Shown in pieces: positions 46,950 to 53,705 of a DNA stretch of 64,000 nucleotides. Origin of the DNA: a virus; the IMG/VR virus record IMGVR_UViG_3300032397_000003, positions 1 through 64,000 of that record. One strand, 5' to 3'. The position numbers were made by a program, and so were the translations under genes. The stretch's first letter is position 1; each line of letters opens with the position of its first letter. The notes under the pieces are model-generated. The model did not search any database. It was not told where the DNA came from and saw nothing but the letters and a program-made list of their open reading frames with translations.

Positions 46950-48176
46950 ATGTCATCAGTACAAGACATGGTTAAAGAAAAAATGAAGATTCTAGAAGGC
47001 GGTGCTTTAAAAGAACTTCATAAAACATTTGGAGAGAATTCCTATTATATAGGAAAGAAAACAATTCCTCAAGTACCTTTGATATGTAGCTCAGGGTCAT
47101 TGAATCTTGATGAAGCATTAGGAATTGGAGGATGGCCAGCAGGAAGAATTATTGAGATTGGTGGTCAAGAATCATCAGGTAAATCCACTCTTACTCTTAT
47201 TAACATTGCAGAGTGTCAAAGAAAAGGAATGTTATGTGCTTATGTGGATGCAGAGCAATCATTTGACCCGGGATGGGCAGCTAAATTAAATGTTGACGTG
47301 GAAAATTTACTTGTAGTACAACCTGACTATTGCGAAGAAGCTTTTAATATGTTAAGAGTTATTTTAGATTCAAGTGTAATGAGTTTAGTAGTAGTTGACT
47401 CAACTAATTCAATGATTCCTAAGAGACTTTTTGAAGGCGATCCAGGGGATTCAGGAATGGGATTAGCAGCAAGAATATTTTCGCAGGAACTTCCTATTAT
47501 TAGAACTAAATGTACAAATACAGGAACGACTGTTATATTTCTTTCGCAAGTAAGAAGTAAGATTGGGGGATATGGTAATCCGGATGTAATCGGGGTAGGA
47601 AATGCTCTTAAATTCTATTCAAGTATTCGTATTAAGACTTCTAAAGCAGAAGTAGAAAAAACTGATGAAGAAGGACAAGAAAAAGTTGATGTAAATATGT
47701 CTATCTTTAAAAACAAAGTTGGTATTCCATTTAAGAAAGCATCTTTTACTCTTAATACAGGTAAGGATGGTGAGTATGGAATAGATACTATGAAAGAGCT
47801 TATAGAGTATGCTATTAGATATGAGATGGTTAAGAAAGCAGGTTCATGGTTTTCTTATATGCCAGTAGGAGGAGCTGAAGAAAAGCTTGGACAAGGTATG
47901 CCCAATGTTAAAAAGTTCTTTAAAGAAAATCCTGTAGTATTTGAAAAAGTAAGAGGGGATATTCTACAGAAGATTCAAGATGCAAGAAATGTTGCTGTAG
48001 GAGTTACTCCAGATTCTTTCAATAGTGTTATGTCTGCTGTAGAAGATAAGCCTAAAAGAAGAAGTAAAAAAGAGGAAGCTGTTGAAGAAAAAGTATTAGA
48101 TATTAAAGAAGCTGAACTTATTCCTGATGCAGAAACTCTAGAATATATGAAAGAAGTAGGAGAAATAGATAAATAA
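46950..48176 (+). CDS. recA: RecA/UvsX-type recombinase (408 aa)
   Basis: The Walker A motif is G-G-Q-E-S-S-G-K-S-T (about residues 71-80). Walker B V-V-D-S-T-N lies near residue 150. V-I-F-L-S-Q-V-R and the loop region (G-Y-G-N-P-D-V-I-G-V-G-N-A) fit RecA. The C-terminal 60 residues are acidic and charged. The length is close to RecA proteins. It has its own promoter motif and GGAG site. It would pair strands during recombination-dependent replication together with the SSB candidate and the Rad50-like protein at 51549. Confidence 0.9.
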   Translation: MSSVQDMVKEKMKILEGGALKELHKTFGENSYYIGKKTIPQVPLICSSGSLNLDEALGIGGWPAGRIIEIGGQESSGKSTLTLINIAECQRKGMLCAYVDAEQSFDPGWAAKLNVDVENLLVVQPDYCEEAFNMLRVILDSSVMSLVVVDSTNSMIPKRLFEGDPGDSGMGLAARIFSQELPIIRTKCTNTGTTVIFLSQVRSKIGGYGNPDVIGVGNALKFYSSIRIKTSKAEVEKTDEEGQEKVDVNMSIFKNKVGIPFKKASFTLNTGKDGEYGIDTMKELIEYAIRYEMVKKAGSWFSYMPVGGAEEKLGQGMPNVKKFFKENPVVFEKVRGDILQKIQDARNVAVGVTPDSFNSVMSAVEDKPKRRSKKEEAVEEKVLDIKEAELIPDAETLEYMKEVGEIDK

Positions 48177-48211: not shown

Positions 48212-48268
48212 GTAGATAGTAAGATTAAACTTTTACTGTCTACTAAATATTTTAACTAAGGAGAAATT

Positions 48269-49921
48269 ATGAAAAAAATTGAGAAATTAACAAAAAAGCA
48301 AGAAGCACAATTAGAAGTTTATAGAGATAAGTGGCTTGCTATAGGTTTATCTACAGAGCAACCTTCTTTTGAAAGAACAAAAGAAATAATAGATAATGTT
48401 TATATTCATTTATTAGAAAAACCTATTGTTCCTGTAGTAGTACTTGATAATCCTTATGATACATGGGTAGCAGTTTGTATACATGCTTCAGAAAGGAATC
48501 AAGTTGGGAATCAAGTTAGGAATCAAGTTTGGAATCAAGTTGAGAATCAAGTTAGGAATCAAGTTGGGAATCAAGTTAGGAATCAAGTTTGGAATCAAGT
48601 TGAGAATCAAGTTAGGAATCAAGTTGGGAATCAAGTTTGGAATCAAGTTGAGAATCAAGTTTGGAATCAAGTTGAGAATCAAGTTGAGAATCAAGTTTGG
48701 AATCAAGTTGAGAATCAAGTTGGGAATCAAGTTGAGAATCAAGTTTGGAATCAAGTTGATAATCAAGTTAGGAATCAAGTTTGGAATCAAGTTGAGAATC
48801 AAGTTGAGAATCAAGTTGAGAATCAAGTTAGGAATCAAGTTGAGAATCAAGTTGAGAATCAAGTTAGGAATCAAGTTGAGAATCAAGTTTGGAATCAAGT
48901 TAGGAATCAAGTTGGGAATCAAGTTGAGAATCAAGTTGGGAATCAAGTTGAGAATCAAGTTAGGAATCAAGTTGAGAATCAAGTTTGGAATCAAGTTAGG
49001 AATCAAGTTGAGAATCAAGTTTGGAATCAAGTTAGGAATCAAGTTGAGAATCAAGTTGAGAATCAAGTTTGGAATCAAGTTGAGAATCAAGTTGGGGATC
49101 AAGTTGAGAATCAAGTTGAGAATCAAGTTTGGAATCAAGTTTGGAATCAAGTTGGGAATCAAGTTAGGAATCAAGTTGAGAATCAAGTTGAGAATCAAGT
49201 TGAGAATCAAGTTTGGAATCAAGTTTGGAATCAAGTTGAGAATCAAGTTAGGAATCAAGTTAGAGATCAGAAAAATTTATTAAATTTTGTCTATCCATAT
49301 TTAGATGGAAATTTAATGTCAGGATATTTTTCTTTTTATGATTTCTGTTTAAATGAATTAAAAGTAGATTTAGATATTAAATTTAAAAATATCTTTAATG
49401 TTTATAAAGATACTTCCGAATTATCTTTAATTTATCCTTTTGATGATATCTGTTTTGTTTGTTCTAAACCAATAGAGATTTATTTTAACGAAAACAAAGT
49501 ATTACATAATTCTAATGGGGCAAGTATTAAATATAAAAATGGATTTGAATTATATCATCTTAATGGAGTTAAAGTAACAAAGGAAATTGTAAAAATTAAA
49601 CCAGAAAAAATTACTGTTAATATGATTTTACAAGAACAGAACGTAGAAGTAAGGAGAGAGCTTCTGAGAAAACTTGGTATAGATAATTTTATTAAAAAAC
49701 TTAAAACTAAACCAATTGATACCCCAGAAGATAAAGTATATGAACTTTATAAATTTAAGATCGGAAATGATATAGACGCTACGTATCTTAAAATGTTAAA
49801 TCCCTCTTTAAAAGATACTTATCATTTTGAAGGGGTAGCTAATAGTTGTAAAACAGTAGAGGAAGCACTTGCATGGAGAGATTCAGAAGATGTATATATT
49901 AAACCAATAGAATTGACATAG
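48269..49921 (+). CDS. DUF6745-like protein with a 64-fold NQVx tetrapeptide array (550 aa)
   Basis: The N terminus has Y-R-D-K-W-L-A-I-G-L-S-T-E (about residues 17-29), then a helical part. From 48497 to 49264 the gene is an exact 12-base tandem array of 64 units encoding N-Q-V-x. The variable residue is E in 26 units, W in 15, R in 14, G in 8 and D once. The C-terminal domain (Y-F-S-F-Y-D-F, I-C-F-V-C-S-K-P-I-E-I, L-H-N-S-N-G-A-S-I-K-Y, and E-V-R-R-E-L-L-R-K-L-G) matches DUF6745 as I remember it, a family with similar D-Q-V-x repeats. The function is unknown. The bipartite promoter suggests early expression. Confidence 0.75.
   Translation: MKKIEKLTKKQEAQLEVYRDKWLAIGLSTEQPSFERTKEIIDNVYIHLLEKPIVPVVVLDNPYDTWVAVCIHASERNQVGNQVRNQVWNQVENQVRNQVGNQVRNQVWNQVENQVRNQVGNQVWNQVENQVWNQVENQVENQVWNQVENQVGNQVENQVWNQVDNQVRNQVWNQVENQVENQVENQVRNQVENQVENQVRNQVENQVWNQVRNQVGNQVENQVGNQVENQVRNQVENQVWNQVRNQVENQVWNQVRNQVENQVENQVWNQVENQVGDQVENQVENQVWNQVWNQVGNQVRNQVENQVENQVENQVWNQVWNQVENQVRNQVRDQKNLLNFVYPYLDGNLMSGYFSFYDFCLNELKVDLDIKFKNIFNVYKDTSELSLIYPFDDICFVCSKPIEIYFNENKVLHNSNGASIKYKNGFELYHLNGVKVTKEIVKIKPEKITVNMILQEQNVEVRRELLRKLGIDNFIKKLKTKPIDTPEDKVYELYKFKIGNDIDATYLKMLNPSLKDTYHFEGVANSCKTVEEALAWRDSEDVYIKPIELT
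48497..49264 (+). repeat. 12-bp perfect-period coding tandem repeat, 64 units
   Basis: The unit is AATCAAGTT plus a variable codon. The phase is unbroken over 768 bases. The variable codon is almost only GAG, TGG, AGG or GGG, with one GAT; the last unit has AGA. The N of one unit is D. The other forward frame and a reverse frame stay open only because of the repeat. Confidence 0.95.
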
Positions 49922-49933
49922 GAGAAAATTAAA

Positions 49934-50248
49934 ATGAAGAAATTTCAACAAGGGGATTTAATTCTAAAAGAGAGCAAAGTTTCTAAAAAAGAATATGGTA
50001 AAAAACTTAATCATTTGATATTACAACAATCAGATGTAAGTAATCATAAACATCAAATAACAAATGGAACCGCTATACTTTATTCTACACAAAGAGCAGA
50101 TGAATTTTATTTAGAGGTGACTTCAGAGAAAGCTGTATTAGCTCATGAAGAACATACCTCCGTAAACATCCCTAAAGGAAAATATTTTATTTATGGAGTA
50201 AGAGAATTTGATCCATTTGAAGATGTAATAAGAAGAGTAAGAGATTAA
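49934..50248 (+). CDS. conserved partner of the DUF6745-like gene (104 aa)
   Basis: It has Q-Q-G-D-L-I-L (about residues 4-10), S-N-H-K-H-Q-I (about 36-42), A-H-E-E-H-T-S-V-N-I-P-K-G-K-Y (about 73-87) and R-E-F-D-P-F-E-D-V-I-R-R-V-R-D. From memory the pattern Q-G-D...G-H-x-H...H-E-E-H...G-x-Y...R-E-Y-x-P is found beside DUF6745 genes in bacteria. The His residues could bind metal in a cupin-like fold. It lies 12 bases downstream with GGAG. Confidence 0.65.
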   Translation: MKKFQQGDLILKESKVSKKEYGKKLNHLILQQSDVSNHKHQITNGTAILYSTQRADEFYLEVTSEKAVLAHEEHTSVNIPKGKYFIYGVREFDPFEDVIRRVRD

Positions 50249-51242: not shown

Positions 51243-51556
51243 TAGTTCAAAACATAGACATAAAAGGTAATAATTATGAGAGTATGGATACCGTTCCAGA
51301 ACCACTATCCACTTATATATCTTGGATATATCCTGAAATTTATGATCCTATTGATAAATCATATATTGAATTATCTTTAATACATACTAGGGCAGCTGAC
51401 AGTATAAGAATAAATTATGACTCTACAAGAGATGGTTGGGTAATTAAACAAGCGTCTGTTTTTGAATTTAATTGTGATGATAAAGTTTGTGATCAAGATT
51501 GGAAAGAAGTTGCTTTTATAGAAGCATGGGCAAGGGAGACTAAAAAAGATGATTAA
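51239..51556 (+). CDS. hypothetical early protein (105 aa)
   Basis: It starts MIVQNIDIKGNNYESMDTVP and shows beta-like strands with W and Y residues (STYISWIYPEIYDP, DGWVIKQASV). It overlaps the previous gene (ATGA) and the Rad50-like gene. No family is recognised. Confidence 0.6.
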   Translation: MIVQNIDIKGNNYESMDTVPEPLSTYISWIYPEIYDPIDKSYIELSLIHTRAADSIRINYDSTRDGWVIKQASVFEFNCDDKVCDQDWKEVAFIEAWARETKKDD

Positions 51557-53705
51557 AAAATTGTATATTCGGGATTTCAGAAACATCAAAGAATTAATTA
51601 TAGAACCATCTGAGTATGTTAATCTTATATCAGGTAATAATGGGGAAGGTAAATCTTCTATTCTCTACGCTATTGAATATTGTCTTACAGATAATCTTAA
51701 TGAAAAGATTTCAGAGTATGTAAGATGGGGGTGTGATAAGTTTTTTCTTGAAATGACTTTTGATCATTCAGGTAGTGAATATGTAATTAAAATTGAAGGT
51801 GATAAAACAGCTAAGAAGGAATTAAAAGTTGATGGTAATACTTATAAAAATTCTGAAGCTACAAAAAAGTTAGCTGAAATAATTGATCCTAATATTATCA
51901 GATATTCTTCTATAAGTGAACAGGGCAAGACAGCACAGATATTATTTGATACTCCCGCTAATAGACTTAAAAAACTTAAAGAGATTTTAGGTATAGACAA
52001 GATATCAGAACTATGTCAAGATTTAAAAGAGGATATAGATAAAAAACAAATTGAAATAAATCTTCATGATAAAGAGATGAAAGTTTTAGAAGATAAGACT
52101 TATAACTTTATTACTGTTGAAAAATTACCTAATATAGAAGATATAAAATCTAAGTTTGATATACTTGAAAAAGATAAAAAGAATTATGATCTACAATCAG
52201 TAATATATGAGACATATTTAAAAGATAAAAAATTATATGAAGATTCAATTATAAATTTGAATACATATGATAAAGAGACTAAACAGTTTAAAGATAAAAT
52301 AGTTGAATTAGAATCTTCTCAAAAAACATATGAAGATAATACCTCTGTGGATGATTTAAATGAAAAAATAATTAACTTAGAAAAAGAACAAATTCAAATT
52401 CAAAATGAAAGAGATGCTTATCAAAGAATAAGTTTAAAAATACAATCTTTAAGAAGTTCAATTTTATCAGAAAGTAATGAATTGCTTTTATATCCTTTGA
52501 GAAGATTATCCACTTGTAAATATACAAATGAAGATTTGTTAATTGTAGAGGATTTATTAACCAAAGATAAAATAAATATAGCATCAGTAAAAAAATCTTT
52601 ACAGTTAGCAAAAGAAGGTAAATGTCCAACTTGCGGGCAAGATTATATAGTTAATGCTGATGAATTAAAAGTAATGATAAATGCTTTACAATTTACTATA
52701 TTAGATAATGAAGAGAAAATAAAAGAAATAAAAAAAGAAATAGAAGATTACAATAAATCTTTTAATGAACAAGAAAAAATTAAAATAAGAAGACAAAACT
52801 GTCAAAATAAAATAGATGATTGTCAATCTGAATTGGATGGGTTACTTAATGGATTTATTGAAAGGGACTTGAATGAACCTCAAGTAGATTATAGAAATAC
52901 AATAAGTAGTTTACAAAAAAAGATTAAAGACCATAATGCTGTTAATCTTTTTAATGTTAATATATCTAATGAAGTAAGAGACTTCAAAAATAAGATAGAA
53001 ACAAATATTAAATTAAGTGAACAATTTAGAAAGGTATTACTTCCGGTTGAAGTAAATGAACCAGAAATGTATGATCATGTGGAGTATGAATTCTTAAAAA
53101 GTGAAATACTTATTTATGATGCAAGGTTAAAGGATCAAGAAAAACTAATTGCTCATAATGAGAAAATAGAGGAAGAAAAAGAATCGGATAAATTAAAAAT
53201 AAAATCTTTAATTTCATTTATAGATTCTATATCTTATAAAGTGGGGATACTAAAAGAATCAAGACAGATTCTTGATAAAGATTTTAGTGCTTGGTTAATA
53301 GATCAAGGTGCTGAGTATCTAAAAGAGAAAATGAATGAATTTTTTAGTAATGCATATGGCAAGTACGAAATTACATTTTCTCAGGATAAGAATAGTATTG
53401 ATTTTTTCTATTCAGATGGTGATAATATTTCACCTTGTTCAATGGCTAGTGGACATGAACAAAAAGTTTTAGCAGTAGGATTTCGTATCGCTTTATCTTC
53501 ATTAAATAATATAGGTCTTATGATGTTGGATGAGGTAGATTCCGATGGAAGTGGGGAGAGGTCACTTCAACTTTATGAAGCTATACTAAGTAATATGAGT
53601 GGAACACAATTCTTTGCTATAAGCCATTCAGAAGAAACTAAAGAAATGTTATTACAGCAACATGGGAGTAAGGAATTTAATGTTGTAAATGGAATGATAA
53701 ATTAA
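51549..53705 (+). CDS. Rad50/SbcC/gp46-like recombination ATPase (718 aa)
   Basis: The N-terminal Walker A is S-G-N-N-G-E-G-K-S-S (about residues 28-37). Two long coiled-coil arms surround a zinc hook, C-P-T-C-G (about residue 358). The C-terminal signature M-A-S-G-H-E-Q-K (about 631) and Walker B L-M-M-L-D-E-V-D (about 655) complete an SMC-type ATPase. The size is close to T4 gp46. It should form a nuclease complex with a gp47/SbcD-type partner, which is not visible in this window. Confidence 0.85.
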   Translation: MIKKLYIRDFRNIKELIIEPSEYVNLISGNNGEGKSSILYAIEYCLTDNLNEKISEYVRWGCDKFFLEMTFDHSGSEYVIKIEGDKTAKKELKVDGNTYKNSEATKKLAEIIDPNIIRYSSISEQGKTAQILFDTPANRLKKLKEILGIDKISELCQDLKEDIDKKQIEINLHDKEMKVLEDKTYNFITVEKLPNIEDIKSKFDILEKDKKNYDLQSVIYETYLKDKKLYEDSIINLNTYDKETKQFKDKIVELESSQKTYEDNTSVDDLNEKIINLEKEQIQIQNERDAYQRISLKIQSLRSSILSESNELLLYPLRRLSTCKYTNEDLLIVEDLLTKDKINIASVKKSLQLAKEGKCPTCGQDYIVNADELKVMINALQFTILDNEEKIKEIKKEIEDYNKSFNEQEKIKIRRQNCQNKIDDCQSELDGLLNGFIERDLNEPQVDYRNTISSLQKKIKDHNAVNLFNVNISNEVRDFKNKIETNIKLSEQFRKVLLPVEVNEPEMYDHVEYEFLKSEILIYDARLKDQEKLIAHNEKIEEEKESDKLKIKSLISFIDSISYKVGILKESRQILDKDFSAWLIDQGAEYLKEKMNEFFSNAYGKYEITFSQDKNSIDFFYSDGDNISPCSMASGHEQKVLAVGFRIALSSLNNIGLMMLDEVDSDGSGERSLQLYEAILSNMSGTQFFAISHSEETKEMLLQQHGSKEFNVVNGMIN

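Follow-up and report, generated by a model that had tools for sequence, protein, structure and literature searches.

The virus genome stretch analysed here, a window of 64,000 nucleotides, encodes a DUF6745 protein in which a long tetrapeptide array separates two conserved parts. Comparison with relatives showed that repeat units built on a Q/S/A-V/L core occupy a single fixed site between these parts. The resulting arm has been acquired, lost, changed in length and reordered through duplication and recombination, with very little change in the DNA around it, and other phages encode such repeats in trans, in small tandem ORFs beside an array-free DUF6745. Our tentative reading, to which we give a probability of roughly 40%, is that the array serves as a fast-evolving, retunable interaction arm in a conserved module of two genes, DUF6745 and that of a small protein that we call HEEH. 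This reading draws on the fixed insertion site, the split between cis and trans repeats, the restricted residues at the first unit position (x1), the turnover of the arrays, the HEEH partner and the precedent of Tweety gp54. The features concerned are listed below.

46950..48176, + strand: recA-like recombinase, directly upstream of the DUF6745 gene (context only)
48258..48263, + strand: ribosome binding site AAGGAG, read from the sequence, 5 nt ahead of the ATG
48269..49921, + strand: DUF6745 gene with embedded tetrapeptide array, 550 aa, ATG start, intact
48269..48496, + strand: N-terminal part, 76 aa, conserved among DUF6745 relatives whether or not they carry an array (tblastn and alignment)
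48497..49264, + strand: tetrapeptide array, 64 x 12-bp units encoding NQV plus E, W, R or G (sequence reading, TRF and unit count)
49265..49918, + strand: C-terminal part, with the Pfam DUF6745 match at 49427-49876 (aa 387-536)
49934..50248, + strand: HEEH protein gene, 104 aa, phrog_27831-like, small conserved partner of DUF6745
51549..53705, + strand: RecF/RecN/SMC-type ATPase (Pfam PF02463, E 5.6e-15; context only)

Sequence reading, unit count and TRF all agreed with the first-pass annotation that 64 units of 12 bp run in one phase from 48497 to 49264, inside the 550-aa ORF. TRF scored this array at 1135 and nothing else in the window above 68, so it is not a product of chance, and the whole 155,573-bp virus record held no second array of such type. 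Four unit types, AATCAAGTTGAG (GAG, 25 copies) and those with TGG (15), AGG (13) and GGG (8), make up 61 of the 64 units; the other three are singletons (GAT, AGA and GATCAAGTTGAG). The array is thus a reshuffling of four founder unit types with three singletons added, and the variable residue is E in 26 units, W in 15, R in 14, G in 8 and D in one. The NQVx unit proposed earlier holds for the 12-bp repeat as encoded here, but one unit begins GATCAAGTT (GDQV), so that the NQV part is not wholly invariant. Since the second position (N, D, S, A or G) varies among relatives, the true unit is x1-x2-Q-V. Across the 64 units the fixed Q and V codons show zero synonymous change; the array is therefore too young or too homogenised to show selection, and its lack of K, A and L is poor evidence of it.

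The arrangement could in principle have been created by assembly, in keeping with the shortness of the exact repeats and with contigs that stop inside arrays (L011, L012, L016 and L019). We regard such an artefact as extremely improbable. The longest exact repeat within the window array is 84 bp, which reads of about 100 bp can span, and identical arrays were recovered from independent metagenomes; for example, L004 and L016, which come from two separate metagenomes, show no base difference over 6637 bp, a stretch that takes in at least 34 units. Moreover, many loci carry arrays, among them annotated phage, plasmid and bacterial records. Several further matches were set aside: a DSQL repeat on the minus strand is merely the antisense of the array, matches of the array to YpjP, GerPC, PDC-S32 and other Pfam, PHROG and PADLOC entries were compositional, below cut-off or weak, and an ARID protein found by PDB sequence search has a low-complexity PGQM repeat.

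The suggestion that the flanking domains belong to DUF6745 was borne out by the PF20530 profile, which scored 59.3 bits against the window protein (curated cut-off 27) and 61.7 bits in a whole-record search. The C-terminal part contains a hairpin-like LHxxxGxxxxYxxG motif; the literature searched held no mention of DUF6745. Among relatives drawn from IMG/VR and from annotated and whole-genome records, tblastn and alignment delimited two conserved regions, one of about 75 aa at the N-terminus and one of about 200 aa at the C-terminus, and the array lies at one fixed site, the junction of the two. This slot holds repeats with a QV core in the window and many phages, a QL core in gp38 of the M. 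abscessus prophage prophiGD102-1 and in L180, an SSL core in MW202476, an SV core in L194, L212 and L220, and an AV core in L179. No such array was present in DUF6745 of Ma-LMM01 and the other chromosomal regions checked. One apparently out-of-frame array (L020) sits at a contig edge and was dropped. A genome-wide DNA pattern scan proved too permissive, returning mostly unrelated QV repeats with only L123 relevant, and alignment A1 was too diverse to be used for the collection scan. Separately, we noted seven unrelated bacterial proteins (L059, L082, L086, L099, L119, L127 and L130) in which QVTx/QVSx tetrapeptide runs directly precede a C-terminal domain ending MTIPDKP. Cellular DUF6745 C-terminal parts are also found fused behind leucine-rich-type repeats (L193, L203, L207 and L213) and, in L208, to a stretch recognised by eye as formylglycine-generating-enzyme-like; these fusions are other variable modules on the DUF6745 core.

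The partner gene belongs to a His-rich family of roughly 100 aa with invariant GD, HxH and HxxH-like motifs (in the window protein, GDL..NHKH..HEEH..GKYF..RE...RRVRD). In 26 of 27 phage-type loci it is encoded on the strand of DUF6745 and no more than about 2 kb away, the lone exception being L008, where it was not found, and it is present in 24 of 43 cellular loci despite flanks of ~1.5 kb. The isolated phage Ma-LMM01 carries the pair as MAP_175/MAP_174, and the family is a conserved neighbour of DUF6745 not only in phages but also in cyanobacteria and Streptomyces. Its histidines suggest that the protein may bind metal; no Pfam or NCBIfam model matched it, and no PDB relative was found.

We then compared where the repeats reside. 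Each of the 12 phage loci with an array-free DUF6745 has 3-16 separate repeat runs nearby, and none of the 14 embedded-array loci, the window among them, has separate repeat ORFs (Fisher p 2.8e-6 after dereplication to 11 v 11). The sample is modest and the first scan used repeat patterns. However, three of the array-free loci (L216-L218) were found using patterns from the array-free protein only, so the association is not purely an effect of the search. A third state, DUF6745 with neither embedded nor separate repeats, was also seen. The separate ORFs (134 distinct) are tandem, mostly ATGA-coupled and mostly 50-80 aa in length; in L023 each stop codon overlaps the next start within the sequence ATGA, and the fixed ends MKLKSV...RTIHR are common to all the ORFs. 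Such QVxx-repeat microprotein operons occur in phage contigs L022-L024, L026-L031, L033, L035, L037, L039-L041, L043, L044, L048-L051 and L216-L218, and have no entry of their own in Pfam or PHROGs; in L022, L031 and L048 there was no DUF6745 within the flanks examined.

Pairs of closely related loci revealed how the arrays change; the pairwise table was dominated by repeat-to-repeat matches and served only for flank pairs. The near-identical phages L002 and L015 differ almost solely in the array and the adjacent C-terminal tract: identity is 99.4% over the upstream 2 kb, 99.6% in the N-terminal part, 100% in the HEEH gene and 99.7% over the downstream 3 kb, and the arrays have 11 v 17 units with differing codons. 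Their C-terminal parts are 91.6% identical, with 53 of the 55 mismatches inside the first 391 bp; the exchanged tract is the array plus about 390 bp of C-terminal coding region. Similarly, L005 and L011 share 6219 of 6220 upstream bases and their first 64 units and diverge thereafter, and standalone arrays diverge faster than the DNA downstream of them (83.0% v 98.6% and 77.5% v 99.6% identity). In these alignments, arrays turn over much faster than the DNA around them. The expectation of frequent changes in length and order thus found support, also in the 64 units of the window against 11 in L002 and 17 in L015, as did the remark that recA adjoins the array gene.

The L002/L015 tract and the recA, RecT or RecE-type genes close by in several loci would also fit a repeat that mainly serves recombination, with tandem 12-mers near recombinase genes promoting exchange of C-terminal parts between phages. 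We hold this to be very unlikely, as the DNA unit differs between loci (CAA or CAG for Q; GTT, GTG, GTA or GTC for V) and only the peptide is conserved, and the standalone ORFs preserve start, stop and frame.

The first-pass annotation had proposed a code-like restriction of the variable residue, and this stood in part. With equal weights for 15 embedded arrays, x1 is R in 25%, G in 25%, W in 24% and E in 19%, together 93%. Because every locus has its own codons for the repeat, those for R (AGG, CGG or AGA) and E (GAG or GAA) as well as for Q and V, it is the peptide and not the DNA that is conserved, and the same four residues recur at x1 with non-QV cores too. Against a strict code, standalone repeat proteins are less restricted (W 27%, R 24%, followed by G, E, L, M, Y, S and K, with N too), the order of x1 is near random with no strong charge or neighbour rule, and the window array merely reshuffles its founders. 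Within units, x1 and x2 are linked (WN, GD), as expected if a few founder units were duplicated, and common ancestry with concerted evolution may lie behind the shared x1 set.

These properties bear on the main alternative, which we judge somewhat unlikely, that the array is a passive spacer: a tolerated, unstable insertion in which only the frame is kept, length and order are irrelevant, units multiply via recombination or slippage, and the residues mirror a few founder units. Such a spacer would fit the four founder types and unchanged fixed codons of the window array as well as the existence of array-free DUF6745 copies, and the near-random x1 order suits it equally well, which we count against a retunable arm. 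What it does not readily accommodate is the recurrence of the identical x1 set on independent codon backgrounds and with other cores, and it leaves unexplained why repeats persist as separate, coupled ORFs beside an array-free DUF6745.

Structure prediction with AF2 gave a single continuous helix for one standalone repeat protein (pLDDT 93, pTM 0.46). In the full-length relative L013 the conserved N- and C-terminal parts were confident (about 90), and the array was modelled as a helical hairpin at a pLDDT of 48-67, a low confidence that also counts against the retunable arm. The models thus suggest a helical hairpin, one whose length could vary without disturbing the core, given its position between the two confident parts; the helix itself is weakly supported because many units contain G, N and V. 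The solenoid proposed earlier was not supported: where beta-solenoid strands would be expected AF2 shows helix, at low confidence for the array and with a possible tendency of AF2 to over-call helix in simple repeats. Foldseek returned nothing better than E 0.9 from the PDB, and matched the Ma-LMM01 protein at E 5e-16. If the array is a retunable arm, it would form a helical hairpin or rod with the x1 residues (R, G, W, E) on display; the number and order of units would set the choice of partner or the distance between the two conserved parts; and the phage would retune the arm to counter some factor of the host or of a prophage that itself varies, with a defence system as the most plausible candidate. 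PADLOC, NCBIfam and PDB searches gave no support for this reading.

Forms with an array come from phages, prophage-like regions and plasmid DNA, and array-bearing copies in bacterial genomes adjoin integrase, RecT/RecE-type, RusA or phage-like sliding-clamp genes. In two Streptomyces-type loci (L224 and L226) DUF6745 lies near STM4012 radical SAM and STM4013 hydrolase genes, an uncharacterised cluster, with two STM4015 genes in the L224 neighbourhood as well. The presence of the module in the M. abscessus prophage, a Nocardia plasmid, Streptomyces and cyanobacteria (up to 8 copies), together with the leucine-rich-type fusions of cellular copies, raises the alternative that HEEH-DUF6745 is itself a defence, an exclusion or conflict module of prophages, plasmids and chromosomes with the array as its sensor. 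This we think quite unlikely: phages of 150-170 kb carry the module, those of the window and Ma-LMM01 among them, no PADLOC model matched credibly, and the chromosomal neighbourhoods inspected by eye held no recurrent defence genes.

Among known systems, MAP_174 of Ma-LMM01 and the Streptomyces and cyanobacterial DUF6745 proteins share both conserved parts, N- and C-terminal, and the HEEH neighbour with the window protein, and their slot holds a non-repeat stretch with no exact array. The literature describes a variable-number in-frame repeat, VR2 of bbp36 in Bordetella phage BPP-1, which is non-essential (PMC2884959); its unit is 24 bp compared with 12 bp here. Diversity-generating retroelements likewise diversify a phage protein, but variation here is by unit shuffling and recombination, and no reverse transcriptase was found in the 155-kb record, which may be incomplete. 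A bolder version of our reading, which we consider unlikely, is a retroelement-free variable-recognition system of phages, in which a DUF6745/HEEH core would use shuffling tetrapeptide-repeat helices, either as one long cis arm or as a trans operon of varied microproteins, to bind changing host defences and neutralise them.

The closest design is that of mycobacteriophage Tweety gp54, which like the window protein has unique ends on either side of a central array of 12-bp/tetrapeptide units. Experiments showed that its mutants that escape defence change the number of tetrapeptides, and that repeat number tunes counter-defence (PMC9262239, PMC8549241); close phages differ in copy number (48, 26 and 15 among Tweety gp54, Che8 gp57 and PMC gp51; PMC2884959), as do the in-frame arrays here (64 in the window versus 11 and 17). 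Its variable residues are also restricted (G34 W11 Q3; S38 Y10). The core is AA rather than QV, the ends lack a DUF6745 match, there is no HEEH neighbour within the 3.1 kb examined, and no standalone clusters have been described. As its N- and C-terminal regions are not homologous to those of DUF6745, gp54 is an analogue and not a homologue; this lack of detectable homology outside the repeats, and of a HEEH neighbour, counts against the retunable arm. By analogy with this non-homologous protein, the DUF6745 arm may bind a partner, be tuned and possibly act in counter-defence. The arm marks a second, unrelated and much wider family sharing the gp54 design, and gives a hint of function for two uncharacterised families found in phages, cyanobacteria and actinobacteria, DUF6745 and the small His-rich proteins. 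This family comes with a conserved partner gene and, in some phages, naturally has its repeats on small proteins of their own, a separation that makes the roles of core and repeat testable.
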